NCBI RefSeq assembly: GCF_003751505.1
Contig: NZ_RJVB01000001.1
Location: forward strand, 985,898-1,049,897
Reading direction: 5' to 3'
Source: Erwinia sp. JUb26
GTDB lineage: Bacteria > Pseudomonadota > Gammaproteobacteria > Enterobacterales > Enterobacteriaceae
DNA: 64,000 nucleotides
This document shows, in pieces, positions 18,839 to 46,610 of the stretch (position 1 is the first letter of the stretch; each line of letters starts with the position of its first letter). The notes below the pieces were generated by a model, which was given only the letters and a program-made list of their open reading frames with translations, did no database searches and was not told the DNA's origin. Position numbers and translations under genes: made by a program.

Positions 18839-18903
18839 CAATATAAGCCGTCAATCTCCCTTCCAGTGGATGCCTGGGAAAAATGAATGGGCGACGAAAG
18901 TAG

Positions 18904-19053: not shown

Positions 19054-19064
19054 GGCACAAAAAA

Positions 19065-19087
19065 ATGGCCCTTCATAAAAGGGCCAT
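19065..19087 (-). terminator. Terminator of the 19103-20290 aminotransferase
   Basis: ATGGCCCTT / AAGGGCCAT, 9-bp stem, short loop, followed on the minus strand by a run of seven T residues. It lies 16 bp beyond the aminotransferase stop. Confidence 0.88.
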
Positions 19088-19102
19088 CAGCATACAGGAC
19101 GG

Positions 19103-27552: not shown

Positions 27553-27597
27553 TAAGGTGCCCCATATCTGATAAGACGATCGCAATTAAACGAAAAT

Positions 27598-27616
27598 AAG
27601 AGTAATTATCATTTTC
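27598..27616 (-). promoter_or_regulatory. Fur-box-like sequence before the receptor gene
   Basis: Minus-strand GAAAATGATAATTACTCTT matches the 19-bp Fur consensus at 14 positions by eye, and a third hexamer (GATAGT) lies next to it. It is 46 bp upstream of the receptor start, between fecR-like and receptor genes, so the receptor probably has its own iron-repressed promoter. Confidence 0.6.
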
Positions 27617-27712
27617 ACTATCACTACGATCACGCATCAGATGACGCACCACTGAACCTGAAAAAGAAAATTTTTTATAAAAAAAACATAACCGACTGTA
27701 AAACAGACATTT

Positions 27713-30536: not shown

Positions 30537-31133
30537 ATGACCACTGAGGCTCCGAACGCCGTAGAACAGGTTAAAGACCATCGTATATTTATGTTTTTAA
30601 AAAAGATCGTGGGAGAATCGTATCATGGCTGTGTCTTTTACATCTTTTTAAGTCTTGTTCTTTATCTGTGTATCGGCCTGGATCTCCGCGGATTTGTTAA
30701 TCAAAAGGCCGTCAGCATATTTTTCGAAAACATTGCTCCCGATTCCATTATGATATTATTTACCGCAGGCGGAATGCTCACCATCATCAGAATGATGGCC
30801 ACCGGTCCAACTAAAGACTCTCTCCCCAAAAAAGGCAAGTTCTATCGTTTTTTGGTTTTCCCGGTAGTCAACACGGGAAAGGTGTTAGCGATTTCAGGTC
30901 TTGGGATGATGATCGGTAACTTTATTGTTAGTCTTTTTTTTATCGACACCGAAAACGCCTCATTAAAGGCGTTCTATTTACTGGCTGTGTTTACCATGTA
31001 CATCTTTTTTTTCGGCGTGATGGAATACTTTGGAAAATACGGTTACACGCCGATTATTAGCGAATGCTGTACGCAGTTTATGCTGGCCACCCTGCTGGTT
31101 ATCCTTCCCTGCCTTTATGTGTGGGCTAATTAA
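30537..31133 (+). CDS. Unknown integral membrane protein, AT-rich
   Basis: 198 residues with about five hydrophobic helices (CVFYIFLSLVLYLCIGLDL; IMILFTAGGMLTIIRMMA; VLAISGLGMMIGNFIVSLFF; AFYLLAVFTMYIFFFGVM; FMLATLLVILPCLYVW). I recognise no family. Base composition is clearly more AT-rich than the neighbouring genes, and short inverted repeats (TGGTAA / TTACCA, 30488-30506) lie in its upstream region, which points to acquired DNA. It converges with the secretion cluster at a strong terminator. Confidence 0.7.
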   Translation: MTTEAPNAVEQVKDHRIFMFLKKIVGESYHGCVFYIFLSLVLYLCIGLDLRGFVNQKAVSIFFENIAPDSIMILFTAGGMLTIIRMMATGPTKDSLPKKGKFYRFLVFPVVNTGKVLAISGLGMMIGNFIVSLFFIDTENASLKAFYLLAVFTMYIFFFGVMEYFGKYGYTPIISECCTQFMLATLLVILPCLYVWAN

Positions 31134-31182: not shown

Positions 31183-33429
31183 TTAAAACGACAGCTCGCG
31201 GATCAATACCGCGTGCACCCGCTGCCACAGTTTGACCGCCAGGCTTTGCGATTGCCCCTTCAGCGACACCGTACCGACCAGCACCTGCTGTGGCGCAATG
31301 CTGTCGCTGGGCAGCTTCAGCACCACGCGATAGACCGCCTGTTCAGGCATCAGCCTGCGCTGCGAATCGCTCAGCGTCGCCACCGGGCCGCCATACACCG
31401 AGGCCAGCTCCGCCAGCGGCTTCATATCCGCCAACGCCGCATGTTCAATATCCAGCACGGTAATCTCACTGGCGGCGCGAGAGGCATCGCGAGGATAGAA
31501 AGTGCCGCTGTCGCCCACCTTCAGCCTCCGCCAGTCCTGTTCGGACACCAGCGCCTCTACTACGCCGCCCTGAGAGCCGATCAGCGTCCCAAGCCACTCC
31601 CCCGGCGGCAGCCATTCTCCCGGTGTGAGCGGCAGCATTTGGTCGACCATGATCCCGTCTGCGGGGGCACGCACGGTCAGTGCCTGCTGCTGCTGTTCCA
31701 GCACCTGGAGCCGCTGATTTGCGGCCTCGCGCTCCTGACGCACGCGCTGATGGTTCTGCGCTGCCCGGCGGTTCATCAGTTGATACTGCTGCTGCCAGTT
31801 AAGGGTGGCCACCTGCTTTTCCAACTGCTGTCGCTGGTGCGATTCACCGTCGGCCTGCAGGATAAACAGCGGATCCCCGGCCTTCACCTGCTGCCCGGGT
31901 TTCACCAGAATCTCGCCGACTCGTCCGGCCAGCGGCATATAAAAGCTGTGCTGCTCGGCGGCGCGCAGCAGCGCCGGAGCCGTAACGGTGCGCTGCCACG
32001 GCACGATCAGCGCCAGCAGGGCCAGCGTTATGGCACCCAGCGTCACACCAAGATGGCGATTCATTCGATAATCCTTACGTCGTTGGGCCCATTCACGTAG
32101 CTCCTGCCAGATCGGCAGCAGGATAAACCAGCCAATTTCCACCGCGAACAGCGCCATCCCCAGCAGCTTAAACGCCATGTGATAAACCAGCAGCGCAATC
32201 CCGGTAAACAAAAACAGGCGATACACCCAGGTGGCGAAGGCGTAGCTCAGCAGCGTGCGCCGCAGCCAGTCCGGCCAATGTTCGGGCGGGGCATCGCCGA
32301 GCCCGAACAGCCATTCGCGCAGCCGCCAGCGGGCCAGCGCAAAGCCGCGCGCCTGCAAATTCGGCACGCCCAGCGCGTCGGAGAGCAGGAAGTAGCCGTC
32401 AAAGCGCATTAGCGGGCTGAGGTTGATCAGCAGAGTCATTATCCAGGTGGTGGTCGCCAGCATAAACGCCGCGCTGCGCCACATGCCGTCCGGCAGGAAG
32501 CTCCATGCCAGCGTCGCCCAGGCCGCCAGCGCCAGCTCCACCAGCATGCCGGAAGCCCCTATCGCCAGCCGCTGGCGGCGCTTCGGCAGTTTCCACGACG
32601 CCGATGTATCGGTATACAGCACCGGCATCAGCACCAGCAGCGCCACCCCCAGCGTGGAGACGCGCGCGCCGTAGCGGGTGCAGGTAAAGGCATGCCCCAG
32701 CTCGTGCAGGCACTTGGTGACCACCAGCGTGCCCCCGGCCAGCAGTGCGCCCTCCAGGGTGAAGAAGTGCAGGAAGGTGTGCAGAAAGGTCTGCCACTGG
32801 CGACTGGCGAACAGCAGTCCGCAGGCCCCGGCGGCCAGGGTCGCCAGCCAGAACGGTCGCCGATAGAACAGCTCAACGTGCGGCAGTAGCCGCTGCAGCA
32901 GGCGGTGCGGATGCAGCAGCGGAATGCGCATAAACAGATAGTTATGCAACAGCCAGCGCCACCAGACGCTGCGGCTCTGCTGCTGCTGATTGAGGAACTG
33001 CTTCAGCGCGGCTTCGCCTTCAGGCCGGGTCAGCGAATGAAACTGCAGGAAGCGGCTGAAGCTCTCCACCTCCTCGTCGCCGATCTCCAGCGGCAGCCGC
33101 TGATTCACCTCGGCAATCAGCCTCTGCCGATCGCCCAGCGACCAGCGCGACAGCAGCGCCATCTCCAGCCAGCCGAGGCGGAAAAAGCGCCCGCGCTGTG
33201 GATCTTCCAGCGTCCAGCTGGGGGAACCGTCCCAGTTTGCCGGGCCGCGATGCAGAATTAACTCTTCGCGCAGCGGCGGCAGCGGGGCCGAATTTGCGGC
33301 AGAACGCGCTGCCGAAGCCCCCCCGGCATGCAGCTGCGCATCGACGCCTGTTGTCATTACGCCCTGAGCAGCCAGAGCTGCCGAATCAGGAAAGGAGCCC
33401 GTCGCAGTGCCGTTAACAGAAGCCCGCAC
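31183..33429 (-). CDS. M50-peptidase-like membrane protein fused to HlyD-type adaptor
   Basis: 748 residues from the GTG at 33429 (GGGAG seven bases upstream, 2 bp after the preceding stop). The first ~190 residues are cytoplasmic. Then come several transmembrane helices with a site-2-protease-like metal site: HELGH at 242-246 and the second motif NLSPLMRFDG (Asp344). After residue ~470 one more helix leads into an HlyD/biotinyl-lipoyl adaptor with a Q/R-rich coiled coil (EKQVATLNWQQQYQLMNRRA). It is the last gene after the adhesin, TolC-like and adaptor genes. I infer it is the inner-membrane channel or processing part of the exporter in place of an ABC transporter. Confidence 0.85.
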   Translation of the reverse strand: MRASVNGTATGSFPDSAALAAQGVMTTGVDAQLHAGGASAARSAANSAPLPPLREELILHRGPANWDGSPSWTLEDPQRGRFFRLGWLEMALLSRWSLGDRQRLIAEVNQRLPLEIGDEEVESFSRFLQFHSLTRPEGEAALKQFLNQQQQSRSVWWRWLLHNYLFMRIPLLHPHRLLQRLLPHVELFYRRPFWLATLAAGACGLLFASRQWQTFLHTFLHFFTLEGALLAGGTLVVTKCLHELGHAFTCTRYGARVSTLGVALLVLMPVLYTDTSASWKLPKRRQRLAIGASGMLVELALAAWATLAWSFLPDGMWRSAAFMLATTTWIMTLLINLSPLMRFDGYFLLSDALGVPNLQARGFALARWRLREWLFGLGDAPPEHWPDWLRRTLLSYAFATWVYRLFLFTGIALLVYHMAFKLLGMALFAVEIGWFILLPIWQELREWAQRRKDYRMNRHLGVTLGAITLALLALIVPWQRTVTAPALLRAAEQHSFYMPLAGRVGEILVKPGQQVKAGDPLFILQADGESHQRQQLEKQVATLNWQQQYQLMNRRAAQNHQRVRQEREAANQRLQVLEQQQQALTVRAPADGIMVDQMLPLTPGEWLPPGEWLGTLIGSQGGVVEALVSEQDWRRLKVGDSGTFYPRDASRAASEITVLDIEHAALADMKPLAELASVYGGPVATLSDSQRRLMPEQAVYRVVLKLPSDSIAPQQVLVGTVSLKGQSQSLAVKLWQRVHAVLIRELSF

Positions 33430-33431: not shown

Positions 33432-34772
33432 TTACACTCCCAGCCAGACGCGCATCGCCGACCACGGCTTACGCAGCAGCCAGGCGATCAGCACCGTGCG
33501 TTCTCCGTAGATTTTCGCACTGCCCTTCAGCCCGACACGCAGCAGCGGATCCGGCTGGCTGAATCCAGCGCGTAGTCGGTAGGCCATAATGTTCTCCGCC
33601 GTCAGTGCCGCGCGGTAGCCGGTCTGCTGTAACGTTGCCGCCACCGATTTATCCGGCGCAACGTTGAGGAACAGCCGCACGTCGGCACCCGGTGCCAGCG
33701 CGATGGCGTCGGCGGCGGGCAGTTGGATCTCCAGCTCGCTGTCTGCCGGATCGGCCACCAGCATAATTTTCTCACCGACCGCCACCGGACGGCCGGTAAG
33801 ATCGCTGACGTCGTCAAAAATCGCCACGCCGTCGCGCGGGGCGACCAGCTCGGTACGCGCCAGCTGCGCCTGCAGGAAGGTCATTTCGGATCGCCCCTGA
33901 TTGCGGCGGCTGGCCAGCACCGCCAGCTGGGCTTTCGCGTCGGTATCGCTCAGCGCCTGCTGCTGCGCCTGGCGATATTCGCCGTCGCTGGCGGCAAACT
34001 GCTGCCTGGCGCTTTCCAGCTGGTTTTGCAGCTCGCGGGAGTCCAGCCGCACCAGCGCCTGGCCCTGCTTCACCGCCTGGTTGGGCCGTACCAGGATCTC
34101 ATCAATCACCCCGGCCAGCGGCGCGCGCAGCAGCGCCGGGCGATGCGCCACCACTTCCGCCGGTGCAATCACCGACTGGCGCACCGGGATCAGCATCAGC
34201 GCCAGCAGCACGGCGCAGGCGGCAATCACCCTGCCGCGCTTCGGCTTCTGTCGCTTAGCCCCGCGCCGGTTATTCAGGCCGAACCAGGCGTGACCATAAG
34301 CTCCGCCCAGCTCTTTCAACAATAGCAGGTCGCCGTCCTGCCACGGCGTTTCACGCAGCAGCAGCAGCGCCAGTGCGGTTTCGCCCTGCGCGGCAGGCAG
34401 CGGCAGCCACAGCCCGTACGCGGGCAGATACTCCTGCCACACCGCGCGGTCGGCGGGGTCCAGCACGCTGGCATCCAGCCGCGACGGCTGGCTGTAACTC
34501 TGCTGCCAGCGCGAACACAGCCGGGCCATCTCCTGGCTGAACGGCGCGTGGCCGTCCGGCGCGGCGATGCCGGAAACGGCACGCAGCCTGCCGCTGACGC
34601 CATCCCACAGCAGCGCCTGGCGGTAGGGCGTCAGGCGATGGGTTTCGTTGACCATAAAGAAGGCCAGCTCGTCGCTGCTGGCCAGCTCGCGCACCCGTCC
34701 CTGCAGGCGTAGCAGTTCGCTCAGCGCCCGCAGATGCCCTTCCGCTGCCGCGGTCTGGTTCATCTCACTCAT
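33432..34772 (-). CDS. HlyD-family adaptor with N-terminal GAF-like domain
   Basis: 446 residues. The N-terminal ~165 residues are cytoplasmic and look GAF-like (VRELASSDELAFFMVNETHR; ALLWDGVSGRLRAVSGIAA; GLWLPLPAAQGETALALLLL). One transmembrane helix follows (about 186-203, IAACAVLLALMLIPVR), then an HlyD/RND-type membrane fusion protein with lipoyl half-motifs (LRAPLAGVIDEILVRPNQAV), a coiled coil and beta-barrel. GAF domains bind small ligands or partners, so the adaptor may sense a cytoplasmic signal. It overlaps the upstream adaptor gene by ATGA. An adaptor with a cytoplasmic sensor domain is unusual. Confidence 0.82.
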   Translation of the reverse strand: MSEMNQTAAAEGHLRALSELLRLQGRVRELASSDELAFFMVNETHRLTPYRQALLWDGVSGRLRAVSGIAAPDGHAPFSQEMARLCSRWQQSYSQPSRLDASVLDPADRAVWQEYLPAYGLWLPLPAAQGETALALLLLRETPWQDGDLLLLKELGGAYGHAWFGLNNRRGAKRQKPKRGRVIAACAVLLALMLIPVRQSVIAPAEVVAHRPALLRAPLAGVIDEILVRPNQAVKQGQALVRLDSRELQNQLESARQQFAASDGEYRQAQQQALSDTDAKAQLAVLASRRNQGRSEMTFLQAQLARTELVAPRDGVAIFDDVSDLTGRPVAVGEKIMLVADPADSELEIQLPAADAIALAPGADVRLFLNVAPDKSVAATLQQTGYRAALTAENIMAYRLRAGFSQPDPLLRVGLKGSAKIYGERTVLIAWLLRKPWSAMRVWLGV

Positions 34773-35536
34773 TCCGCCGCCGTGCCCGAGGCGGCAGGCA
34801 GGCTGAACTGCGCCGCGCCGCTCATGCCGGGCAGCAGCAGGCCGTCACCCTTCTCTTCAATGCGGCCAAACACCTTCACCGACTGGCTGACCGGATCCAC
34901 CGCCGAGGAGAGCCGGACGATTTTCGCCGGGTAGCTTTCCCCGGTTTCATCCAGCGCCACGGTAAACGGCGTACCGGCTTTCAGCCAGCGCAGCCAGCGC
35001 GACGGCACGATCATTTCCAGCTCAAAGGCGCTGTCGTCGTACAGCGTCAGCAGCGGCTTGCCTTCCGGCACCGTTTCCCAGTTGCGCACCAGCGTTTCGG
35101 TCACGCGGCCGGAGAACGGCGCTTTCAGTACGCAGCGGTCGAGCATCGCCCGGTTCACGCCGCTTTCCGCCTGCGCCATGCTCACCGCCGAACGCGCCTG
35201 CTCAACGTCCGAGACGCTAATTGAGTTCAGGCGATCCAGCCGGTTGGCCACCGCCAGCTTTTTCCGCGCCGCCTGTTCGTTGGCGCTGGCATAGTTCAGC
35301 TTCTCTTTCAGCATGGTGCAGTCGAAGCTCAGCAGGGTGGCACCCTGCTTCACCCGATCGCCCTCTTTCACCGTCAGCGTGTTAATCCGCGCCGCAATGC
35401 CGCTGGAGAGCGTGGTCTGCTGTACCGCACTGAGCTGGACGCGCACCGGCTCCGGCGGCGCGTCCTCCGCCAGCGCGCGGTCGGCACACACCATCATCAG
35501 CGCCAGCAGCAGCGGATGGGCCAGTTTTTTGTGCAT
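34769..35536 (-). CDS. Periplasmic adaptor (membrane fusion protein)
   Basis: 255 residues from the ATG at 35536, which overlaps the TolC-like gene stop by one base. A signal peptide (LAHPLLLALMMVCADRALA) precedes a lipoyl-type motif (RINTLTVKEGDRVKQGATLL), a short hairpin and LKAPFSGRVTETLVRNWETV, typical of soluble RND/HlyD adaptors. It probably bridges the inner-membrane fusion proteins and the outer-membrane channel of the exporter encoded by its neighbours. Confidence 0.87.
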   Translation of the reverse strand: MHKKLAHPLLLALMMVCADRALAEDAPPEPVRVQLSAVQQTTLSSGIAARINTLTVKEGDRVKQGATLLSFDCTMLKEKLNYASANEQAARKKLAVANRLDRLNSISVSDVEQARSAVSMAQAESGVNRAMLDRCVLKAPFSGRVTETLVRNWETVPEGKPLLTLYDDSAFELEMIVPSRWLRWLKAGTPFTVALDETGESYPAKIVRLSSAVDPVSQSVKVFGRIEEKGDGLLLPGMSGAAQFSLPAASGTAAE

Positions 35537-37290
35537 CACTGCGCACCACCGGACAGGGAGCTGTAGCTGTCCCACATGTTGCCTGAACTCACCGCGTACG
35601 GCTGGCTGCTCACCGCCTGCTGCGCCGGTGTCGGTGTCGGTGCCGGACGGCTGGCGGCCAGCAGCGCGGCGGATGGCGTGGCGGTGGTGACTTTGCCCGT
35701 AGGCGCACCCAGTACCGGCACGGCAATCGCCCCGTTTTCAATCTGCTTGCTGGTGCTGTTGATGCTGCTGCTGAGCGCGGCCAGGCTGGTGTCGTTAACG
35801 CGGTCCGGCAGAATATCCAGACCGGCGGCCTGCCAGATGCTGCCCAGCGCGTTCTGCATCACCGCGAAGCTGCGGTCGCGAGCGCGAGTGGTCAGAATGG
35901 TTTCGGTGCTGACGCGAATCTGTTCCATCTGGGTGGCAGCCTGGTTACGGTAGCTGAGGTCGGTCTGCTGGTAGATGCCCTGCTGCACGCGCGCCAGTTC
36001 CTGGTAGCGGTTAAACATCTGCACGCTGCTCAGGTACTCCTGCCAGGAGACGTTAACCTGGGCCATCACCGCCATGCGCATCGCCTGGCGACGGGCTTCC
36101 GCCACCTGCTCTGCCGACTCGCCCGCACGCTTCACCGACGACCACGCCAGCACGTTCAGCAGGTTGCCGCTAACCTGTACCCCGGCAGAGGCCCAGCCGT
36201 GGTTCACCAGGTAGCTGTTGCTGTCGCCGTTCACCCCGGCAAACAGCGTCGCACCCGGCATCAGGCGCAGCAGCGAGCGGCGGGTTTCCAGCACCGCGTT
36301 GCGCGCTTCGTAGCTCTCCTCGCGGATTTCCGGGCGGCGCACCATGGAAATATTTTCCAGATCGCCGAGGGTGTAGCTCATCTTCGGCGCGGTCATGCTG
36401 CTTTCAGCAGGTACCACCAGACTGAAGTCGCTGGCCGGCGGCAGGTTCATCAGCGAGGACAGGCGGGCTTTCGCCAGCGCCAGGTCGCTGTCCACCACTT
36501 CCAGCTGGCGTACCATTTCCAGCATATTTTTCTGGAAGCGCAGGGATTCTACCGGCGGCAGCAGGCGCTCGCGCTCGGTGGCGCGGGCGTACTCCAGCGA
36601 GCGTTTCGCTTCGCCCAGCGCACGGGTCACTTCGGGCTTCAGGCGTTGTGCGGTGGCCGCTTCCCACCAGGCGGTACGCACCTGACGGGTAATATCCGCC
36701 ACCACTTTGCGGCGACGCTCCTCGGCGGCAAGGGTTTTATTCGCCTGCATATGGGCGTTGACGTAGCTGATACCGAAGTCCAGCACGTTCCAGCTCATGG
36801 TCAGGTCGGCGGTACGGGTGGTCTGATCCTGGCTGGTGGACGATTCCAGCGACTGCTGGCCGGTGGTCACCGACTGGCTGCTGGAACCGGCGACGTTGTC
36901 GCGGGTTTGCAGCCCGGCACGGGCCGCCAGCTTCGGCAGCATATCCAGGCTGGCCACGCTGCGCAGATCGTCCTGCATCGCCTGCTCCATCAGCGCCACG
37001 CGCTGCTGCAGGTTATACTTCAGCGCGCGGGCAATCGCTTCATCCAGGGTAATGTTGCCGCGCACCGGTTCCTGATCGCTGAACATCTGCGTGCGGTCGG
37101 TCATCGCCTGGGTCACCTGTTCCGCGGGGGTCATCGCCTCGGGAGTGACGGCGCATCCGGCCAGCAGGGTGCAGGCCAGCGCCACGGCCAGGCTTAAACG
37201 ACGCGGCGCGCTGACCGGCGCCTGTACTGGTGCAGAAACAGAGGTAAAGTGAGTCACTGAAAGCGTTCCCATCGTATTGAAATTATTCAT
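35536..37290 (-). CDS. TolC-family outer-membrane channel lipoprotein
   Basis: 584 residues. A long N-terminus leads to a lipobox (LLAGC, Cys46). Two outer-membrane-efflux-protein repeats follow, with NITLDEAIARALKYNLQQRV at the start and long coiled coils (ADITRQVRTAWWEAATAQRL; MAVMAQVNVSWQEYLSSVQM). The C-terminal ~90 residues are low-complexity (Ala/Pro/Thr/Ser). It forms the trimeric exit duct. Its gene follows the giant adhesin by 19 bp and is joined to the adaptor genes, so the adhesin is its likely cargo. Confidence 0.92.
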   Translation of the reverse strand: MNNFNTMGTLSVTHFTSVSAPVQAPVSAPRRLSLAVALACTLLAGCAVTPEAMTPAEQVTQAMTDRTQMFSDQEPVRGNITLDEAIARALKYNLQQRVALMEQAMQDDLRSVASLDMLPKLAARAGLQTRDNVAGSSSQSVTTGQQSLESSTSQDQTTRTADLTMSWNVLDFGISYVNAHMQANKTLAAEERRRKVVADITRQVRTAWWEAATAQRLKPEVTRALGEAKRSLEYARATERERLLPPVESLRFQKNMLEMVRQLEVVDSDLALAKARLSSLMNLPPASDFSLVVPAESSMTAPKMSYTLGDLENISMVRRPEIREESYEARNAVLETRRSLLRLMPGATLFAGVNGDSNSYLVNHGWASAGVQVSGNLLNVLAWSSVKRAGESAEQVAEARRQAMRMAVMAQVNVSWQEYLSSVQMFNRYQELARVQQGIYQQTDLSYRNQAATQMEQIRVSTETILTTRARDRSFAVMQNALGSIWQAAGLDILPDRVNDTSLAALSSSINSTSKQIENGAIAVPVLGAPTGKVTTATPSAALLAASRPAPTPTPAQQAVSSQPYAVSSGNMWDSYSSLSGGAQ

Positions 37291-37309: not shown

Positions 37310-40300
37310 TTAGTCACGCGCCAGCGCATTCAGCGCCTGGAGCAAATCGTCGCCGTCGCCGCGCAGGGCATTCAGCGAGTGTGAAACACCCTGATTAAAG
37401 GCCACATCCGGCTGCGCCTGAACGCGTACGCCGGTGGTCGGTATCAGGAAGCGTTCGCTGGCTTCCGCCGCCGCGCGCGCTGACTCGCTGCCGTGCAGCG
37501 TCAACAGCAGCGACGGGGCACCGCCCGCACGCTCAAGGCGCAGCTGAATCTGACCGACGCGACCGGCATCGGCGGCATTAATTTGCAGCTCGCGGCGTGC
37601 GGCGTCATAGCGGATCCATTCCGGCAGCGGACGACCGTTGGCCAGCTGAACCGACACAATGCCGCCGCGCCCCGCCAGGCCAGGCGGTAGCGCATAGACC
37701 TGCTGACCGTTGCCGCCGTCGTGCCATTCACCGCGCCATGCGGTGGCGCGCGCCAGCGCCGGGTTATCGGCGGTACGGGAAGTAAAGTTGACCTTCTCCA
37801 GCGGCGGCATCAGCGTTGGCATCAGCGGATCGAGCTGCCACGGCGTGGCCTGGTAGTCCAGCGGACCGCTGGCCAGCACCGGGGTATCGCTCAGCACCAG
37901 CGGGTCGCGCGGTGCCTCGGCGCTGACCGGGATAAATTCCGGCTCGCGCTCCTGCCAGATAAAGCGTTCGGCATTGCCGTCCGCCTGCGGGAATAGCCTG
38001 ACCGGGGTCATCACCACCGGTGAGACGCCCGCGCCCGCAGGCTGGATAGTCAGCGTAAAGGTGCGGCTGGCCACGCCGCCGTAAGGATCGGTGACGCTAA
38101 CGGTAATCAGGTAGCTGCCGTCGGTGGCGGCGCGGCCGCTGAGGGTGCGGCTGTCAGCGTCAAAGCTCAGCCCGTCCGGCAGCCCGCTGACGCTCCAGGT
38201 GAGGTCATCGCCATCGGCATCGTTAAACAGATCCGCGGGCAGCGTCTGCTGCCAGTCAATGCCGGCTATCGGCTGGTCCGGGGTAAATGTGACGTCGGTG
38301 ACCTGCGGCGCGCGGTTGGCCAGTAGCACCAGCGTGCGGCTGACGCTGGCACCCCAGGCATCGGTCGCAGTCAGCGTCAGGGTGTAGCGCCCGGACGGCA
38401 GCGTGCCGCTCAGCGTGTGGGTTTCGGCATCAAAGCGAAGTCCCGCAGGCAGGTTATCCGCCTGCCAGGTCAACGCATCGCCGTCGGCGTCGGTAAACAG
38501 CGTGTCGGCCAGCGCCACGCTAATGGCCGTACCGGATGAGACGCTGAAGCTGGTCTCACCGCTGCCCAGTTCCGGCGTGGTATTCACCCGCAGTTCAAGC
38601 TGGCGGGTCGCGCTGGCACCGTCGCCGTCGGTCACGGTAATGGTCAGGGAATAGACCCCTGCCGAGGTAGCGGTACCGCTCAGCGTGCGGGTGGCCGCAT
38701 CAAAGGTGACCCCGTCCGGCAGGCCGCTGATGCGCCAGCTCAACGTGTCGTTATCAGCATCGGTAAACATCCCCTGTGGCAGCGTGGCGGTGTACGCCGT
38801 ACCAAGGGTGATCACCGCAGGCTGATAGCTGACGTCGGTACTCTGCGGCGCGTGGTTAATGGTGACATCCTGCTGCCAGGCACCGCTGGTGAGCTCACCG
38901 TCGCTGACAATAAGTGACAGTGTCACTGTGCGTCCGGTGCTGTTGTCCGCATTGTTGTAGACCAGGCTGCTGATAACCCGGCCTGCGGTGGCGCTGCTGA
39001 CGCCGTCGGCGAAGGTGACGATCAGCACACCGTCGTGCTGGCTGAAGCTACCAATCACCGTGCCGTTATCCAGAACCCGGCCGTCGGCGTTCAGGGTCAG
39101 GCCGCTGTCGGCGGTGAAGGCAAAGCTGCCCAACCCGCTGCTGTCGGTGACGGTAACGCTCGCCCCGCCGTAGTTGCCGCTGCCGTCGTTAAGCACGTCC
39201 AGCGCTTTGTCTTTTAGCGTAACGTCGCTGCTGAAGTTCAGCTCCGCGCCGCTGCCGACGGTGTAACGCACCTCTTCAACCACGGTAATCAGGCTGGCGA
39301 GCTGGCTGCCGCTGACGATCACTCCGCCGTCGCTGGTGGTGAGGATTTTGGTTGCGCCGTTCAGCGCCGCGTACTCGCTGCTGCTCCAGCTGGAGGTCAG
39401 GGTCAGCTTGCCGCTGTTGCCGATGCTGTAAGCCTGCAACGTCCCGTCGCTCAGGGTAACGTACAGGCTGTCGCTGCTGGTCGCCAGCGCGGTCACGCCG
39501 CTGATATCGCTCATCACGCCGGTCTGCACGATCTGGCCGCTCTTCTGGTTCAGGCTGAAGATTTGCAGGCCGCTGCTGGTGGCGACGTAAATCAGGCTGC
39601 CGTCCTCGCTGACGGTCATCGCCGACGGTGAGTCGATGGACAGCTTGCTGCCGCTGGCGTCGGTGTCCTGATCGAAGACCGCGCCGAGCAGCGCCAGCGT
39701 ACCGTCCGCCTGGCGCTGGTAGACAATAATGGCGTTGGGGAACTGATCCGCTACCGGGTCGGTGACGATAAACAGATAATCGCCGCTGAGCACCTGCGCC
39801 ACCGGCTGCCACAGGTGCGGCGGATCGAAGGCATTGGCTTCGACATCCCCGAGATTGGTCATCTTGCCGGTTTCGGCATCGATGGCGATCGCGCTGAGAC
39901 CGCTCTGGTTATACACGTAGATCGTCAGCCCGTCGTCGGAGACCAGCACCGAGCTGATATCCCACATTTGCACGGTATCGAGCTGCGTCAGCGTACCGTC
40001 GGTCCCGATACTGAAGATATTCAGGCTGTAATTGATTTCATCATCCGACGCACCTTCCGCTTTGCCGCTGGTGCTGATCACCAGCTTGCTGCCGTTATCA
40101 ATCAGGGCGATCTTGTCGATTTTACCCAGCCCGCTGTCCATGTTGCCGAGCCAGGTCAGCGCCCCGGTGGTGGTATCGCGGCTGAACAGCGCGACCTTGC
40201 CGCTGCCGTCGATGGCGTACAGGCTGGTGCCGTCATCCGACAGCACGGTTTGGATCAGGGTGCCGAGGCCGCTCACTTCACTGAGGCTGCCGGCCCAGGC

Positions 40301-43300
40301 CAGCTTATCGCTGTCCGGTGAGCTGAGCTGCGGACCGGCGTCCTGCGCCTGAAGCGTAATCACCGAGTGGATATCCAGATCGGTGCTGTCGCTGCCGCCG
40401 AGCGCGGTACCGCCACTGTCTTTAATCCCGGTCAGCACGATTTCGCGGCTGCCGAGATAGGCATCCGGGTTGCCGTAGCCAAGGGTATTGATCAGCGTCT
40501 GGGCTTTTTCAGCGCTGATGCCCGCGTCGCTGACGAGGGTTAACGAGGCCACGCCGTCGGTCACGCTGACGGTGACCACGATATTGCTGTCGGTCAGCAC
40601 GCGAACGCCGTCGGCCAGCAGGACGTTTTTGCCGTCAATCACCAGATAATCGCTCTCGCCGCTCACCAGTCCGCTGACGCTGAGGGTGATTTGTACGATG
40701 CTCTGGCCGTTCTCGATGGTATCCACCACCGTGTTGCTGAACACCAGCGTGCTGCCGCTGGTGTCGCGGTAGGTCGGGTCGGTGGCCTGGCTGCTCACTT
40801 CCGGCGCGTCGTTAATCTGAGTGACATTGACCTCAACCGACTGGCTGGCGGTGGTCCAGGGATCGCTGATGCTGACCACCATCTTCAGGGTGCTGCCCGG
40901 CGCTTTACTGGTGCTCTGCCAGCTGATTTGATGCAGCACCTGATTAGCGACCGCGGTGGTGACATCGGCGGTAAAGGTCACGGTCAGGGTACCCTCGCTG
41001 ACGGTGAAGCTGGCGATGGCGGTGCCGTTAAGCAGGATGTTGCCGTTCTCCAGCGTCAGCCCGTTACCCTCTTGCAGACTGTAACTGTCGTCGGCGTTGG
41101 TTCCCCCGTCACGCGCCATGGTAATGCTGGCACCGTTATAGTTGCCCGCACCGCCGTTGGCCGCATCGTAATCCACGTCGCGGAGCACCAGCTGGCTGGC
41201 GATCTGGCTGCTGCCGCGTTCGGTCCACGCCACCGAGACCAGATCCGTTGAACTGTCGAACGCGCGCAGGCCGGTTTTGTAGTAGCGCGATCCGCCGTAG
41301 ATCGATTTGCCGTCGGCGGAGATCGCCACCGCAATCATCGCGCCGTCGCCCTGAAGGGTATTGCGCAAGGTCAGGCTGCCGCCGTCACCGATGGTGTACA
41401 CCGCCAGGCTGGCGGCGTTGGTGCCAACGTACAGCGCCGTGCCGTCGGCGGAAAGCGTCACCGACATCGGGAAGCCGCCGACCTCGGCGTTGACGGATTT
41501 TGACGAAATCAGGCTCATGCTGCCGTTCGCCGCATCGTAGTGCAGCACGGTCAGGTAGTTAGCGGTACCGGTCACCACGTAGATATAGCCGTCATCGGAA
41601 ACCGTCATCTGGGTGAAGACGCCGCCGTTTAATCCGCTGCTGGAGCTTAGCGTGCCCGCGCTGCTGGCGTTGCCGTCTTTATCGGTCCAGGTCAGTGCGG
41701 TGGCGTCGCGGGTCAGCTTGCCGGCATAGCTCAAAACGCCACTGCTGTCGGTGGTGTAGAGATTCATATTACCGGTGCTGCTGATGATGTACAGCGTGCC
41801 GCTGGCGTCGAAGTCCATGCTGACGGCGCTGCTCAGGCCGGTGAAGTTCTCCTGCGCGGCGAGTTTGCCCTGCGCATCCACGCTGTAGCGGTACAGCCCG
41901 CTGGCGGTCAGCGCGTAAACGCTGCTGCCGTCATCGGACATCGCCAGTTTTACCGCCGTCGCGCTGAGATTCACGCTGGAAACCGCCGTCAGCGAACCGT
42001 CATCGCCGAGGGTAAACGCCTGCAGTACCGCCTGACCGCTGCTGTTGGTGCCGGACAGATACAGGGTGTTGCCATCGGCGGAAAACGCCGTCTGGGTGGT
42101 GCCCTGAATACCTTCGATTTCGATACCGTTGGTATCGTTACCGTCATTGACGCTGCCCTGGGTATAGGTTTTTTGCAGCGTCAGTACGCCGGTGCTGGTA
42201 TCGCGGCTGTACACACTGACGTAAATAGTGCCGGTCCAGTTAGCCCCGGTGCCGCCGATCACCACCAGGCTGGTGCCATCGTCCGAAAGCTTGATCGCGT
42301 CCACGTAGTAGCCATAGTTCTCAAGGCCACCCTTCGAGGTGTAGATCAGCGAACTGGACTGCGGGCCGAGCGTCGGTTGGGTGTTGGCAGCCTCATCGGC
42401 GGTAATCACCCGCAGGGTCATATCACGGCTGGCGCTGTCGCCGGACTTATCGGTGACGGTAATGGTCAGGTAGTTATCGCTAAGCGAGGTCGCCGTACCG
42501 CTGATGGTCAGGGTTTTTGCATCGAAGGTCAGCCCTTCCGGCAGTCCGTCTACCGTCCACGTCAGCGTGTCGCCGTAAATGGCATCGGCATCGTTAAACA
42601 GCGTGGTGTCCAGCTTCAGGGTGAACGACTCGTTGACCACCGCCGAGCTTAGCTGACTGCTGGCGTCCCAGTTGGTTTCCGGGGCGCGGTTATCGATCTG
42701 CGCCACCGCCAGCGACAGCGTCAGACTGGCGGTGGCACCGGTGCTGTCCTTCGCGCTGAGAGTGATGCTGAAGGTGCCAACCGCCGTGGTGGAGCCGGAA
42801 ATGGTATGGGTTTCGGCATTAAAAGTCAGGCCGTCCGGCAGGCCGGTGACGCTCCAGATCAGGTTTTCGCCGTCAGCATCGCTAAACAGCGCAGGCAGCT
42901 CCAGCCAGTAGTCCGTCTCGGTAGTGGCCTGCGGCAGAGTATAACCGGCGGTCACCTCCTGGTTGAGCAGCGGACTGGTGTTGACGCGCAGCAGCACGGT
43001 GCCGGTGTTGCTGTTCAGCTGGCCGTCATTGACCACCACACTGAGCGTCACCAGCGCGCTGCTGGTCCCGGTGGTCGCCCACATCACCTGCTGCAGCACC
43101 TGGTTGGCGGTGGCGGTGGTCACGTCGGCGGTGAAGGTGATTTTCACCGTATTACCGCTGGCGGCAACGGTGCCAATCACGCTGCCGTTCAGCAGCAGCT
43201 GGCTGCCCTGCTGGGTCAGGCCGCCGTCGCTGGCGAAGCTGTACTGGCTATCGCTGCTGCCGGAGGCGGTCAGGGTGATCGAGGCGCCTATATAGTTGCC

Positions 43301-44995
43301 CGCGCCGTTGTTCAGCACGTCGAAGTTGCTGTCGGAGACGTTCATGCCGGTGGTCACCGCCACCGGGCTGCCGCCGACGGTGTAGGTGATCAGCGAGGTA
43401 TAGACCTCCACGCTGCTGCCGCCAACCACCGCCAGCGAGGTGCCGTTGCTGGCCAGCGCGGCGCTGCCGCCGGTGGTCTGGCTGCTGACCAGGGTCAGCG
43501 CGCCGGTGCTGGCAATGGCATAGACCGACAGCTGGCCAGTACTGGTGCTGACGTACAGCAGGCTGCCGTCGCTGCTGATCGCCACGTCCTGCGCTGAGGT
43601 AATGGTGCGGCTTTCGACCTGCGTCAGCACGCTGCCGTTGAAGCGCCAGGCGATCAGCGCTCCGGTGCTGGTATTCAGGGTATAGATCACGCTGCCGTCG
43701 CTGCTGGCGGCAACCTGATATTGATAGGAGTAATTAAGCGGCGAGGCCACGGTGGTGTTATCCACTTCAACCAGCGTAGTGACGCCATTCTTTACCTCGC
43801 GCTTCAGTACAGTCAGCGTCTGAAAGTCTCCGCCTGCGGTCATGACAAAGACATAATCTCCTACCGAGGTCAACCCGGCATGGCGATCCACATTACCGGT
43901 AAGACGGGAGGCATAGACCAGCGCGCCCTGCTCATTGATGTCATAGACATAAATCCCGTTCACTTCAGAGCTGATATAGAGCTGTTTACCATCCTCGCTG
44001 ATGGCCATATTGATCGGCTTGTCGCCGATGGCTTCTTTACTGGCGAAGGTCAGCGTACCGTCCGCTGCGCGGGTCAGAGTGATGATAGAACTGGTGGCGC
44101 TATTTCCATCGGCACTCAGCACCACGTTCAGCAGATAAACCGCCTTATCGCCCACCGCCATACCGCTGGTCACGGCAAAATTCGCCGTGTCGCTAAAGGT
44201 TTGCAGTTTAGTCAGCACGCCGCTGTCGGAAACGCTGTAAACCACCACGCTTCCCTTGCTGCTGGCGACGTAGGCGAAGTCACCGTCCGGCGAATAGCTC
44301 ACGGCATTCGCGCCGTCGGCGAGATCGGACACGGTGAGATCGTCCAGCAGCGTCAGATCGCCGGTGCTGTCCACTTCGGGCGCGAGGTTTTTATCGTTAT
44401 CGATGGTGACGGTGCTGCTGATATCGAGATCGGTGCTGTGATTTTGCGCGTCGCTAAGGGTTCCCAGCCGCACGGTGACGGTGCCGTTGCCCACGTCGCC
44501 GTCCAGCGCGCGATAGCTGATGCCGTTAATCAGGCTCTCTACCGCATCGGGCGTCACGGTACCCGCATTGTTTAGAAATAGCGTTATCGTGGTGGTGTTA
44601 TCGGCAATCGCCACGCTGTAGGAGTAGTGGCTGTTGGCCGTTTCACCGAAAGCGCTGGTGGTGGTCAGCGTAATCGCCGTGCCGTCAATCACCAGCGCCT
44701 GGTTGCTGCCGCTGGTGTTGACGCTGATAGTCAGCTTGCTGATTTCGTGGCCGGTGCTGTCCGCCGATACGCTGGCGTTGCTGAACAGGTGCACGTCGGC
44801 ACCCGGCGTGCCGGCGGTATCAATGCTAAACACTGCATCGCTGACCGGCGTAGCGGTGGCGACCGGTGCGGTGGTGGCAACGGCGGTGGCATCGGCCACG
44901 TCGGCGGCGGTGGTGACCGCTGCGGCATCAAACATCATGCGCGGCTCAAGCGCCAGCGTCAGGCTCCAGGCCGGGCGTGTGGATGATTTTTTCAT
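37310..44995 (-). CDS. Giant LEPR-motif surface protein with beta-propellers and cadherin-like repeats
   Basis: 2561 residues. The N-terminus has no Sec signal but a LEPRMMFDAA motif (16-25), a mark of very large exported proteins. The body holds three supermodules, each a lactonase/YVTN-type beta-propeller (about 190-545, 893-1265, 1575-1920) followed by a ~110-residue beta domain with '(D/A)-N-G-GNY-GAS' (about 550, 1270, 1925). Five dystroglycan/He_PIG cadherin-like domains (DADGD-LTW-V-GLPDGL) lie near 700, 800, 2075, 2165 and 2258. A distinct ~230-residue C-terminus follows. I saw no RTX nonapeptides. AGGTGA precedes the ATG, 37 bp after tadG. It is probably an adhesin or matrix protein exported by the genes behind it. 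Confidence 0.9.
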   Translation of the reverse strand: MKKSSTRPAWSLTLALEPRMMFDAAAVTTAADVADATAVATTAPVATATPVSDAVFSIDTAGTPGADVHLFSNASVSADSTGHEISKLTISVNTSGSNQALVIDGTAITLTTTSAFGETANSHYSYSVAIADNTTTITLFLNNAGTVTPDAVESLINGISYRALDGDVGNGTVTVRLGTLSDAQNHSTDLDISSTVTIDNDKNLAPEVDSTGDLTLLDDLTVSDLADGANAVSYSPDGDFAYVASSKGSVVVYSVSDSGVLTKLQTFSDTANFAVTSGMAVGDKAVYLLNVVLSADGNSATSSIITLTRAADGTLTFASKEAIGDKPINMAISEDGKQLYISSEVNGIYVYDINEQGALVYASRLTGNVDRHAGLTSVGDYVFVMTAGGDFQTLTVLKREVKNGVTTLVEVDNTTVASPLNYSYQYQVAASSDGSVIYTLNTSTGALIAWRFNGSVLTQVESRTITSAQDVAISSDGSLLYVSTSTGQLSVYAIASTGALTLVSSQTTGGSAALASNGTSLAVVGGSSVEVYTSLITYTVGGSPVAVTTGMNVSDSNFDVLNNGAGNYIGASITLTASGSSDSQYSFASDGGLTQQGSQLLLNGSVIGTVAASGNTVKITFTADVTTATANQVLQQVMWATTGTSSALVTLSVVVNDGQLNSNTGTVLLRVNTSPLLNQEVTAGYTLPQATTETDYWLELPALFSDADGENLIWSVTGLPDGLTFNAETHTISGSTTAVGTFSITLSAKDSTGATASLTLSLAVAQIDNRAPETNWDASSQLSSAVVNESFTLKLDTTLFNDADAIYGDTLTWTVDGLPEGLTFDAKTLTISGTATSLSDNYLTITVTDKSGDSASRDMTLRVITADEAANTQPTLGPQSSSLIYTSKGGLENYGYYVDAIKLSDDGTSLVVIGGTGANWTGTIYVSVYSRDTSTGVLTLQKTYTQGSVNDGNDTNGIEIEGIQGTTQTAFSADGNTLYLSGTNSSGQAVLQAFTLGDDGSLTAVSSVNLSATAVKLAMSDDGSSVYALTASGLYRYSVDAQGKLAAQENFTGLSSAVSMDFDASGTLYIISSTGNMNLYTTDSSGVLSYAGKLTRDATALTWTDKDGNASSAGTLSSSSGLNGGVFTQMTVSDDGYIYVVTGTANYLTVLHYDAANGSMSLISSKSVNAEVGGFPMSVTLSADGTALYVGTNAASLAVYTIGDGGSLTLRNTLQGDGAMIAVAISADGKSIYGGSRYYKTGLRAFDSSTDLVSVAWTERGSSQIASQLVLRDVDYDAANGGAGNYNGASITMARDGGTNADDSYSLQEGNGLTLENGNILLNGTAIASFTVSEGTLTVTFTADVTTAVANQVLHQISWQSTSKAPGSTLKMVVSISDPWTTASQSVEVNVTQINDAPEVSSQATDPTYRDTSGSTLVFSNTVVDTIENGQSIVQITLSVSGLVSGESDYLVIDGKNVLLADGVRVLTDSNIVVTVSVTDGVASLTLVSDAGISAEKAQTLINTLGYGNPDAYLGSREIVLTGIKDSGGTALGGSDSTDLDIHSVITLQAQDAGPQLSSPDSDKLAWAGSLSEVSGLGTLIQTVLSDDGTSLYAIDGSGKVALFSRDTTTGALTWLGNMDSGLGKIDKIALIDNGSKLVISTSGKAEGASDDEINYSLNIFSIGTDGTLTQLDTVQMWDISSVLVSDDGLTIYVYNQSGLSAIAIDAETGKMTNLGDVEANAFDPPHLWQPVAQVLSGDYLFIVTDPVADQFPNAIIVYQRQADGTLALLGAVFDQDTDASGSKLSIDSPSAMTVSEDGSLIYVATSSGLQIFSLNQKSGQIVQTGVMSDISGVTALATSSDSLYVTLSDGTLQAYSIGNSGKLTLTSSWSSSEYAALNGATKILTTSDGGVIVSGSQLASLITVVEEVRYTVGSGAELNFSSDVTLKDKALDVLNDGSGNYGGASVTVTDSSGLGSFAFTADSGLTLNADGRVLDNGTVIGSFSQHDGVLIVTFADGVSSATAGRVISSLVYNNADNSTGRTVTLSLIVSDGELTSGAWQQDVTINHAPQSTDVSYQPAVITLGTAYTATLPQGMFTDADNDTLSWRISGLPDGVTFDAATRTLSGTATSAGVYSLTITVTDGDGASATRQLELRVNTTPELGSGETSFSVSSGTAISVALADTLFTDADGDALTWQADNLPAGLRFDAETHTLSGTLPSGRYTLTLTATDAWGASVSRTLVLLANRAPQVTDVTFTPDQPIAGIDWQQTLPADLFNDADGDDLTWSVSGLPDGLSFDADSRTLSGRAATDGSYLITVSVTDPYGGVASRTFTLTIQPAGAGVSPVVMTPVRLFPQADGNAERFIWQEREPEFIPVSAEAPRDPLVLSDTPVLASGPLDYQATPWQLDPLMPTLMPPLEKVNFTSRTADNPALARATAWRGEWHDGGNGQQVYALPPGLAGRGGIVSVQLANGRPLPEWIRYDAARRELQINAADAGRVGQIQLRLERAGGAPSLLLTLHGSESARAAAEASERFLIPTTGVRVQAQPDVAFNQGVSHSLNALRGDGDDLLQALNALARD

Positions 44996-45032: not shown

Positions 45033-46610
45033 TTACTCGATCAGGCGTACGGAACTACTCTGTTTATCGATACTCGCCAGAATGTCATCCAGCTTGTTGC
45101 TGATTTGACCTTCTGCTCCGGAGAAGCTGGAGCTGTCGGCAAATTCCACCGAACCGCCATCGTTGTTGGTACACTCCTGCAATCCGGGCAGCGCAATGCG
45201 GTCAAACAGCCCGCGTCCAAAATCTTCCGGGTCGCCCGGCCGCACGCCGATGAAATAGAACTTGATATCGCGATTGCGGAAGCTTTCGCACAGTGAACGG
45301 AAGCGTTCGGTGGCGGCCGTGGTGGCCTGCCCGGTTTCTTCACCGCCGTCGATCGCCTCGCCGACGTAGCTGTTGTAGGAATCGGTGTCGAACCAGTCGC
45401 CGGTGGTGTTGGCCATCATCACGATCGCTTTCAGGTTGCCGCTGCCGCCGTCGTTAAAGTCCAGCGGATATTCGCTGTCGCCCCAGCCGTCGCCGCCGCG
45501 AAACGCCGGGGACAGCGCCATGGCGCCCCAGCCCATGGCGATGGCGTAGTTGATGTTAAAGTGCGACTCCATCTGGTCGAGGCGGTCGGAAATCTTGCCG
45601 AGATCGTCGGTCAGCGGCAGCAGCGCCGCCGTCGGGCAGCCCTTGTCACCGACGATAAAGCGGGTGTCGTTCACACCGGTCGCCTGGCCAAAGTCCGGGT
45701 TCGGCCCTACCCACTGAATAAACGGCATCCAGGTGGCGTTAATCGGCAGATCGTGGCGATAGTGGATCCAGAAGCTTTTGGCCGGCGCCTCTTCCCAGAA
45801 GTAGTTTTCCCCCTGATCCAGCCCGCGATAGAGGCACATGCGCTGAGTCTGCAGGTCGGGCATCATGCGGCTGGCCATATTGGCGATACCGTAATCGTTG
45901 TTACGAAACAGCGACGACAGCTCTACCGGGGTCAGCGCCTGGGTCAGCGACCAGCTGCGAATGCGGGTGCTCCAGTTATCGGCATCCCAGACGCTGACCG
46001 ACTGGCTGTAGGGCACCAGCGCTATCCGGCGGTCGGGGAAGTCGGTGAGAAAATCATTGGCAAAGGTATTGGTCAGGCGGCGCAGCACGGCCAGGTCACC
46101 GGCCTGCTCGCTGGAGGTGTTCGGCAGAATCATCGCCACTTCCGCCGGGCGGTAGATCACCTCGGCGGTCGAAAAGATCTCCTGCTCCTGCGAGCCGACA
46201 TCCAGCAGTTCGGGATCGCTGGCGTAGCTGACGCTGACGGTAAAGGTACGGTGGGCCTTATCCGTCCGCCCTTCGCTGACCGCAATATCGGAAATCCGCA
46301 GCTGTTCCGCCAGGCGGCTGTTGAGGCCGAGGTTGGTGCGCACGTATTCCCACGCCAGCTGCTGCTTTTCACCGTCGCCGAAGCTGCTGTTATTTTTAAT
46401 CAGCGACTCGCGCCCCACCGCCAGCGCCGCCGCATCCGCCGCGCGCTTGATCTGCGCCGCATCGCCGGTGGTCTGTACGCTGTCGAGGATAAAGGCCCCG
46501 CTGACCAGCAGCGCCATCATGCCCAGCACGTAGAAAGCGGTTCCTGCCCCTTTTTCCTGGCGGCAGAAGCGGCGCACCGCGCGGTTCAGCGCGCTGAGAG
46601 AGTTATTCAT
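45033..46610 (-). CDS. tadG: TadG-like pilus assembly protein with degenerate von Willebrand A region
   Basis: 525 residues. A pseudopilin-like start (QEKGAGTAFYVLGMMALLVS) lacks the usual glutamate at position +5. The periplasmic part resembles vWA domains of TadG, but the metal site expected as DxSxS reads MILPNTSSEQ, so MIDAS aspartate is lost. Other strands (RIALVPYSQSV, IVMMANTTGDWFDTD) are kept. TadG acts late in Flp pilus assembly or anchoring. It overlaps tadF by 8 bp and is followed directly by the giant surface protein gene. Confidence 0.85.
   Translation of the reverse strand: MNNSLSALNRAVRRFCRQEKGAGTAFYVLGMMALLVSGAFILDSVQTTGDAAQIKRAADAAALAVGRESLIKNNSSFGDGEKQQLAWEYVRTNLGLNSRLAEQLRISDIAVSEGRTDKAHRTFTVSVSYASDPELLDVGSQEQEIFSTAEVIYRPAEVAMILPNTSSEQAGDLAVLRRLTNTFANDFLTDFPDRRIALVPYSQSVSVWDADNWSTRIRSWSLTQALTPVELSSLFRNNDYGIANMASRMMPDLQTQRMCLYRGLDQGENYFWEEAPAKSFWIHYRHDLPINATWMPFIQWVGPNPDFGQATGVNDTRFIVGDKGCPTAALLPLTDDLGKISDRLDQMESHFNINYAIAMGWGAMALSPAFRGGDGWGDSEYPLDFNDGGSGNLKAIVMMANTTGDWFDTDSYNSYVGEAIDGGEETGQATTAATERFRSLCESFRNRDIKFYFIGVRPGDPEDFGRGLFDRIALPGLQECTNNDGGSVEFADSSSFSGAEGQISNKLDDILASIDKQSSSVRLIE

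Follow-up and report, generated by a model that had tools for sequence, protein, structure and literature searches.

A recurring gene cassette around an M50-HlyD fusion protein as a candidate ABC-free export system for a giant surface protein

The M50-HlyD gene cassette of Erwinia sp. JUb26

We analyzed a stretch of 64,000 nucleotides from Erwinia sp. JUb26 (contig NZ_RJVB01000001.1, positions 985,898 to 1,049,897; hereafter the window) around the gene for an M50-peptidase-like membrane protein that is fused to an HlyD adaptor domain (M50-HlyD). This gene is the last of five minus-strand genes, the first of which encodes a giant surface protein, the putative cargo:

37310..44995, minus strand: cargo, a surface protein of 2561 amino acids (aa) with immunoglobulin-like (He_PIG) and beta-propeller-like repeats (open reading frame, profiles)
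35536..37290, minus strand: TolC-like outer membrane channel (OEP) with a lipoprotein-like N-terminus (profile and N-terminus)
34769..35575, minus strand: small periplasmic adaptor with a signal-peptide-like N-terminus (RND_mfp over its cut-off)
33432..34772, minus strand: HlyD-type adaptor with one membrane segment near residues 182-201, its N-terminal domain being GAF in some relatives (profiles, hydrophobicity)
31183..33429, minus strand: M50-HlyD, a 748-aa fusion of a domain resembling the recognition element (RRE) of ribosomally synthesized and post-translationally modified peptides (RiPPs) with M50 and HlyD parts (motifs, alignment, structure models)

Read along the minus strand, a two-component pair and a Tad pilus operon precede the cargo gene, which is followed by the OEP, the small adaptor, the second adaptor and M50-HlyD. 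The latter has a GTG start at 33429, and the stop codon of the gene upstream of it ends at 33432. A preliminary description of this DNA had reported a cluster with a TolC-like channel and adaptors but without an ATPase; indeed, the five genes encode one TolC-like protein, two further adaptors and no protein of the ATP-binding cassette (ABC) type. Nor do they include a transporter of the resistance-nodulation-division (RND) or major facilitator (MFS) type, and the M50 protein is the only multi-helix inner-membrane protein among them. The HlyD-type adaptor and the TolC-type channel of type 1 secretion are both present in the window cassette, whereas its dedicated ABC exporter is not. The GAF profile matched 7 of 32 family members of the partner adaptor (E up to 0.05); the window copy was not among these, and Pfam gave no match in its GAF-like region. 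Promoter and terminator scans returned no more than shuffled sequences did.

Domain architecture of M50-HlyD

Five features were located within the M50-HlyD chain:

33019..33285, minus strand: PqqD/RRE-like domain, residues 49-137, predicted to be cytosolic (structure and profile matches)
32080..32907, minus strand: site-2-protease-like membrane core, approximately residues 175-450 (Peptidase_M50 profile and fold matches)
32692..32706, minus strand: HELGH motif, residues 242-246 (sequence reading and alignment of relatives)
32395..32424, minus strand: NLSPLMRFDG motif, residues 336-345 with Asp344 (sequence reading and alignment of relatives)
31237..32013, minus strand: HlyD/MacA-like periplasmic adaptor domain, residues 473-731 (structure match to MacA)

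Both metal motifs of site-2 proteases (S2P) lie where the preliminary description had placed them, HELGH at 242-246 and Asp344 within N336-L-S-P-L-M-R-F-D344-G. For comparison we aligned 82 M50-HlyD relatives, namely 63 of 80 scanned loci, the window and 18 rows from genome searches, leaving out the 17 loci that were at least 75% alike or longer than 760 aa. H242, E243, H246, N336 and D344 are invariant in all 82 rows, and K239, E298, W309, D351 and R404 are among the further invariant residues. As none of the relatives has lost a motif residue, the metal site is under selection; a chance motif or a misread frame was ruled out by the reading of the frame together with this conservation. The Peptidase_M50 profile scored 26.6 bits against the whole window frame, just under the Pfam cut-off of 27.2, and 28.2 bits, over the cut-off, against residues 44-455; at E up to 0.05 it matched all 82 relatives. 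An HExxH motif, the Asp of NxxPxxxxDG and a predicted S2P fold occur together in the window protein, and its conserved metal site suggests that it may be active as a protease.

Structure prediction of the fusion yielded RRE-like, S2P-like and MacA-like folds in one chain with a mean predicted local distance difference test score (pLDDT) of about 90. The AlphaFold model of the whole protein has a pLDDT of 90.2 and a predicted template modelling score (pTM) of 0.79. Residues 44-455 were also modelled separately (pLDDT 90.4, pTM 0.86), because the HlyD part had filled the match list in the fold search with the whole protein. Comparison of this shorter model by VIA-align gave Z scores of 11.1 for RseP, 10.1 for SpoIVFB and 9.2 for the S2P of M. 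jannaschii, with the next row at 6.1 and mostly unrelated rows below it. As values under about 13 may arise by chance for helical bundles, the assignment of the protease core leans also on the motifs and the M50 profile; Foldseek likewise ranked S2P first (E 6e-4). The claim of a C-terminal HlyD domain is borne out by a HlyD_3 match at residues 597-676 of the 760-aa open reading frame, by biotin-lipoyl-like parts found with Pfam, and by similarity to MacA of MacAB-TolC (9qgy_G, Z 16.8, 5.1 A over 219 residues). Judged by its hydrophobicity and the charge of its loops, the protein probably has about seven membrane helices, with the RRE in the cytosol and the HlyD domain in the periplasm.

The N-terminal domain, in which three strands are followed by three helices, is predicted to have the fold of PqqD and the RREs, the leader-peptide readers of RiPP pathways. 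In VIA-align, residues 49-137 approximately matched the leader-bound lasso synthetase B1 of 6jx3_B (Z 10.6, 2.5 A, 82 residues) as well as TbiB1 (5v1u and 5v1v, Z 10.2 and 10.0, 2.6 A), and more weakly the RRE of sactipeptide enzymes (Z 6.8). Independent of structure, hhalign of the 82-row alignment against 14 PqqD-family proteins gave 95.4% (E 1.9e-8), compared with at most 1.2% for 20 column shuffles and 0.2% for the reversed control; a shorter slice of 52 rows reached 86.6%. Moreover, a six-frame scan of 94 genomes placed PqqD over its cut-off within the M50-HlyD frames of two genomes (G107 and G150). For the window protein itself, Pfam found no match in the first 243 residues and NCBIfam none ahead of residue 139. 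The domain shares its fold and the PqqD profile match with PqqD, TbiB1 and lasso B1, of which structures bound to leader peptides exist. It differs from them in its fusion to a membrane protease and an export adaptor, and we noticed no RiPP modification enzyme in the cassette.

Among named families, profile searches place RiPP M50 proteases (EpeP/YydH-LiaK and the daptide HExxH protease) closest to the protease part. The daptide_HExxH model matched residues 152-445 of the 760-aa frame with E 2.4e-45 and LiaK with E 2.9e-5; at 155.3 bits against a curated cut-off of 300, the window protein is not a member of the daptide family (NF041824). In contrast to these proteases, M50-HlyD has gained RRE and HlyD domains, and its putative cargo is a giant protein instead of a small peptide. 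According to a review (PMC10885120), EpeP is thought to carry out both cleavage and export, and it is a precedent for the two activities in one M50 protease, not a proof for M50-HlyD.

Distribution of the cassette and the cargo motif

A scan of genome contigs revealed at least 589 confirmed relatives of M50-HlyD. The best 80 were taken; by their titles they come from Alpha-, Beta-, Gamma- and Zetaproteobacteria, Nitrospirota and organisms of the Desulfobacterota type. Plasmids carry the gene as well, among others of Escherichia, Citrobacter, Hafnia, Azospirillum, Burkholderia and Magnetospirillum. Together with five annotated records, in which a cargo-like gene is followed by TolC, two adaptors and M50-HlyD, the 80 scanned loci make up the 85 loci of our survey. 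One of these records is from Azospirillum brasilense Sp7 (L032), where the annotation shows the five genes adjoining one another. An OEP on the same strand was present in 68 of the 85 and in 64 of the 70 that have at least 5 kb of upstream sequence; 11 of the 17 loci lacking it have less than 3.4 kb. Another adaptor lies within 4.5 kb upstream of M50-HlyD in 80 loci. The recurring cassette consists of a giant surface protein, a TolC-like channel, a small adaptor, a GAF-type adaptor and M50-HlyD. The sequence agrees with the earlier description of a fusion to an HlyD adaptor that replaces an ABC transporter, and this arrangement is kept across phyla.

Among 5,426 complete E. coli genomes, 23 had a partial DNA match, which covered 24% of the query in the rows listed, and 21 of the 24 matching places are plasmids. 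A class sample of 185 genomes contained 24, besides that of the window, with an M50-HlyD match better than 1e-20; many of the weaker matches are the HlyD part alone. No relatives were found in viral contigs. As a separate observation, E. coli plasmid pKL53-L (L030) carries the whole cassette at 283-20076 with a cargo of 4473 aa, beside Tn3, IS5 and TnsA-like remnants.

The cargo of the window begins with MKKSSTRPAWSLTLALEPRMMFDAAAV and has no signal-peptide-like hydrophobic stretch at its N-terminus (best 19-residue mean 1.06, residues 38-56). One short feature stands out in this region:

44927..44950, minus strand: LEPRMMFD leader motif, cargo residues 16-23 (NF012209, alignment A4, DNA read directly)

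The cargo scored 19.6 bits against the LEPR-8K model (NF012209, cut-off 17). The motif common to the N-termini of the cargos is ALEPRxMFD[AG]A, with ALEPRMMFDAA in the window. Fifteen cassette cargos match on LEPR..FD in alignment A4, with L, E, P, R and D invariant; apart from the window, the rows were chosen by an EPR pattern, and part of this invariance is a selection effect. Variants include LESRQLFDGAA (the E. coli plasmid cargo), LEKRLMLDAS and LEQRMMFDAAG.

The N-terminal cargo motif tracks M50-HlyD across genomes. LEPR-8K was matched in 12 of the 185 class genomes, 11 of which have a strong M50-HlyD match (the other being G174), while 14 have M50-HlyD and no LEPR-8K match and 159 have neither (Fisher p = 3e-10, not corrected for relatedness). 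A model built from A4 matched five of the 185 genomes at E <1e-3, all of them with M50-HlyD, including the window genome, which was itself part of the model. At E up to 0.01 seven were matched, the additional two being G107, with M50-HlyD, and G200, which lacks it and matched in a frame of 51 aa. At the same threshold the model matched 45 of 50 genomes that had been chosen for M50-HlyD and contributed no rows to A4, and in 39 of the 45 the best match lies in a frame of at least 1,000 aa. For 16 of these matches the surroundings were fetched: ten lie just outside the cassette locus, at the expected start of the truncated cargo gene, one at the far end of an equally long contig and five on other contigs. 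Because of these five, one M50-HlyD machine may serve unlinked cargos as well.

With regard to the uncleaved signal that type 1 secretion substrates have at the C-terminus, a C-terminal motif, [LF][TSNDHAE]xQ[LFVIM] within 75 residues of the end, was present in 35 of 47 cargos, compared with 1.5 on average and at most 6 for interior windows and 2.7 on average for shuffled ends. The pattern was picked after viewing the cargo ends, and the N-terminal feature is more widely shared. The 47 comprise the window cargo and 46 of 58 cargo-like open reading frames, recognized by composition and length, among which those of L069, L070, L107 and L112 were kept although they may not be cargos. In the cargos of L030 to L112 this C-terminal motif, of the type KPxLxxQ[LFV], is the second conserved one besides the leader motif. 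By passing the LEPR-8K cut-off, the window cargo resembles the LEPR-XLL proteins; the window clade differs in having LEPRxMFD[AG]A where the cargos of a sister clade have LEPRxLLSAD. We found no export route for LEPR-XLL proteins in the literature searched.

Proposed mechanism, motor and alternative explanations

We consider it somewhat probable that the five genes from 44995 to 31183 form a self-contained export system that works without an ABC protein and serves a single giant surface protein, and in which the RRE-protease-adaptor fusion reads and probably clips the leader. The cytosolic RRE of M50-HlyD would bind the N-terminal ALEPRMMFDAA leader of the cargo, as suggested by its fold and the co-occurrence with the LEPR leader, and would hand it to the site-2-protease-like membrane domain, which probably clips it. 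M50-HlyD itself may gate the inner membrane. Judging from families and gene order, its HlyD domain, the GAF-type adaptor and the small adaptor would couple the inner-membrane complex to the TolC-like channel, through which the cargo would pass to the cell surface. The motor would lie outside the cassette, with SecA as the candidate. The preliminary description had left a choice between a protein that processes the cargo and one that forms the channel. Both are possible together, and the RRE-like domain and the N-terminal motif of the cargo favour leader recognition with processing coupled to export.

A candidate for the motor comes from the sister clade. There, relatives with approximately 20-29% identity adjoin GAF-HlyD genes and, in many cases, a short SecA, whose frame of about 570-760 aa matches SecA_DEAD (E down to 6e-99, three tested), the SecA P-loop and the preprotein cross-linking domain. 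Of 61 genomes scanned for SecA_DEAD, 11 have the short SecA directly beside M50-HlyD and one (G179) on another contig, and two more loci show the same proximity. A short SecA also occurs in two genomes of the window clade, where its neighbour is an additional M50-HlyD of the sister type. The scan detected no second SecA in 21 control genomes, hand-picked among those without a strong M50-HlyD match, although it also missed the housekeeping SecA in two of them (G102, G121); housekeeping SecA was likewise unseen in G174 and G316, and G198 gave two fragments. In a tree of 40 chosen rows, with long branches for L021 and L024 and with G158 and G277 left out, a single branch (99/95; all 200 bootstrap trees) separates the 11 SecA-linked rows from the others. 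Short SecA-like proteins of about 660-680 aa beside sister-clade M50-HlyD genes were also noted at L202:12748-14778, L205:10870-12852 and L206:11505-13505.

The dedicated SecA of the sister clade is a pointer to the missing motor, and a SecA-type motor is our leading idea. It resembles accessory SecA2 systems, in which a dedicated second SecA serves giant streptococcal adhesins; here, however, the envelope is Gram-negative, TolC, adaptors and a metalloprotease take part, and the window cassette has no SecA. In the window genome we found a SecA of 906 aa, one 26-bit match and no second SecA, by a scan with the gaps given above. By analogy with the sister clade, we tentatively take the housekeeping SecA as the likeliest motor of the window clade, at less than even odds; otherwise it may be proton-motive force or an unlinked ABC exporter. 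The earlier remark on a missing energy source still holds for the window cassette, for which the SecA adjoining M50-HlyD in sister-clade genomes suggests the leading candidate.

Several observations weigh against an ABC-free system of this kind. SecA-like genes occur in none of the 85 window-clade loci. With respect to the RRE, Pfam PqqD was matched in just 7 of the 82 M50-HlyD relatives at E up to 0.05, and Foldseek alone ranked TbiB1 second with E 0.11 (probability 1.00). With respect to the signals, no leader match was obtained in 5 of the 50 M50-HlyD genomes, one of which has the variant LEKRLMLDAS; the cargo-like gene of a Magnetospirillum plasmid (492 aa) starts without the leader motif, and the C-terminal motif in its strict form is missing from the window cargo. 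Furthermore, a canonical adaptor of the type 1 secretion system (T1SS) passed its cut-off in 41 of the 50 cassette genomes, including that of the window, and in Serratia marcescens (L039) a HlyB-type exporter of 700 aa (884.6 bits, cut-off 725.6) and a HlyD-type gene (443 aa) lie on the opposite strand, 2.1 kb and 0.8 kb past M50-HlyD, respectively.

The last two findings make an ABC motor in trans possible, and the L039 pair shifts some weight from the ABC-free system toward this alternative, in which the energy for transport would come from a canonical type 1 ABC exporter with genes at another site and M50-HlyD only processes or tethers the cargo and joins as an extra adaptor. We regard it as unlikely overall. 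A search of the window genome for an orphan ABC partner, as proposed in the preliminary description, did retrieve one complete T1SS pair, a HlyD gene (C3:51734-52846) next to the gene of an ABC protein of the LssB type (C3:53016-55097), which exceeds its cut-off with 747 bits, but on another contig and unlinked to the cassette. ABC proteins are numerous in this genome; of 265 first-look candidates 150 were scored, and the nearest scored ABC_tran match (C1:1053835) lies about 23 kb past the cargo gene, the cluster being at C1:1017080-1030892. Across the survey, an ABC motif scan gave matches in 8 of 85 loci, and a similarity scan with the type 1 ABC protein of the window genome and four others as queries found 13 open reading frames in ten loci, of which only that of L039 was identified as a type 1 exporter; by similarity, none was detected in the other 84 loci. 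Seven of 50 cassette genomes, among them G217 and G260 with a listed completeness of 100%, had no TIGR01843 match at E 1e-30 (mostly 28 candidates scored per genome), and in these seven no protein passed the LssB cut-off (at most 48 candidates scored). Generic ABC exporters remain in these seven, and G331 has a 745-aa protein of 322 bits that could be type 1. A channel and three adaptors are part of the cassette itself, which also moves on plasmids.

Of the twelve other frames from the similarity scan, five were named and belong to ABC-F, importer or stand-alone ATPases. Among all ABC-like frames checked, a stand-alone ATPase (L066, 269 aa), an AAA_15-like protein (L058, 485 aa), ABC-F-like proteins (L208, 622 aa; L100, 493 aa), an importer-like protein (L100, 596 aa), a protein of the TIGR03864 kind (L083, 245 aa) and a sugar-importer-like protein (L070, 845 aa) are of other types, and seven frames of 228-375 aa in L047 (two), L051, L084, L091, L099 and L100 were set aside on length alone. 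The L039 genes belong to a divergent minus-strand group beside the cassette (L039:13758-18859) that includes a further gene of 553 aa.

Still more doubtful is a route in which the cargo crosses the inner membrane by SecA-SecYEG and M50-HlyD then clips the leader and passes the cargo to the adaptors and TolC. The S2P-family fold and the SecA of the sister clade would fit this route, but the N-terminus of the cargo has no hydrophobic stretch resembling a signal peptide, and a cytosolic RRE implies recognition prior to transport. We think it very improbable that M50-HlyD is a signalling protease of regulated intramembrane proteolysis, for which GAF and HlyD parts would serve as sensors while the cargo takes another exit: its closest solved folds, RseP and SpoIVFB, are signalling proteases and some partner adaptors have GAF domains, but its gene is linked to those of a TolC-like channel, of adaptors and of a giant surface protein, and this linkage and the co-occurrence with the leader motif speak against it.

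Returning to the ABC-free export system, the cassette shares with type 1 secretion (ABC, HlyD and TolC) the TolC-like channel, the HlyD-type adaptor and a very large surface cargo; in addition to the missing ABC protein, it differs in its RRE-metalloprotease as the inner-membrane part and in the N-terminal position of the most widely conserved cargo signal. As described in PMC8277102, the inner-membrane component of known TolC-dependent exporters is an energised transporter of the ABC, RND or MFS class, and C39-peptidase ABC exporters carry a leader-processing peptidase on their inner-membrane part, a property that M50-HlyD would share. We found no description of such a system in the open-access literature, with bioRxiv preprints outside the scope of the search, and the gene set may represent a type of secretion system that has yet to be described. 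New here are the predicted RRE fold of the N-terminal domain, the LEPR cargo motif that tracks M50-HlyD and the SecA of the sister clade. It is conceivable, though we put it forward with reservation, that a RiPP-type recognition element, an intramembrane metalloprotease and HlyD form the inner-membrane gate of a distinct secretion system, which reads and clips the LEPR leader and feeds TolC while being pushed by SecA, a dedicated one in one clade and the housekeeping one in the other. An apparent leader-reading protease would then stand in for the energised transporter, both on E. coli plasmids and in many members of the Proteobacteria, Nitrospirota and other groups. If true, this would provide an export route and a targeting signal for many giant surface proteins known only as 'LEPR-XLL' or 'DUF4347', link RiPP leader biology to protein secretion and allow a direct test of whether SecA works with a gate other than SecYEG.

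Next to the cassette, the Tad pilus operon extends on the minus strand from 57105 to 45033 (Flp pilin, CpaA, RcpCAB and TadZABCDEFG, named by reading and similarity to the loci of relatives), with the two-component pair ahead of it at 59515-57366. A gap of 37 bases separates it from the cargo gene on the same strand:

45033..46610, minus strand: TadG, last gene of the Tad pilus operon, which adjoins the cargo in several relatives too (reading, similarity)

TadG lies next to the cargo in relatives from Pantoea, Pectobacterium, Serratia, Pseudomonas and Marinomonas; in P. mosselii TadG alone was seen in the stretch fetched. Tad genes adjoin the cargo in 6 of 16 upstream regions fetched (L184-L188 and L193, one with TadG alone) and in L037, L041 and L046. 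The operon has its own ATPase, TadA; a Tad ATPase as the general motor was rejected, as Tad genes stand beside the cargo in only part of the upstream regions. The Tad link looks like a local elaboration and perhaps ties the surface protein to the pilus. Beyond the other end of the cassette, a plus-strand gene at 30537-31133 for a probable membrane protein of 198 aa, without Pfam or NCBIfam match, adjoins the end of M50-HlyD, and a minus-strand TonB-dependent receptor with a FecR-like regulator and a sigma factor of the extracytoplasmic function type (25123-29246, named by reading) is apparently an ordinary uptake set.

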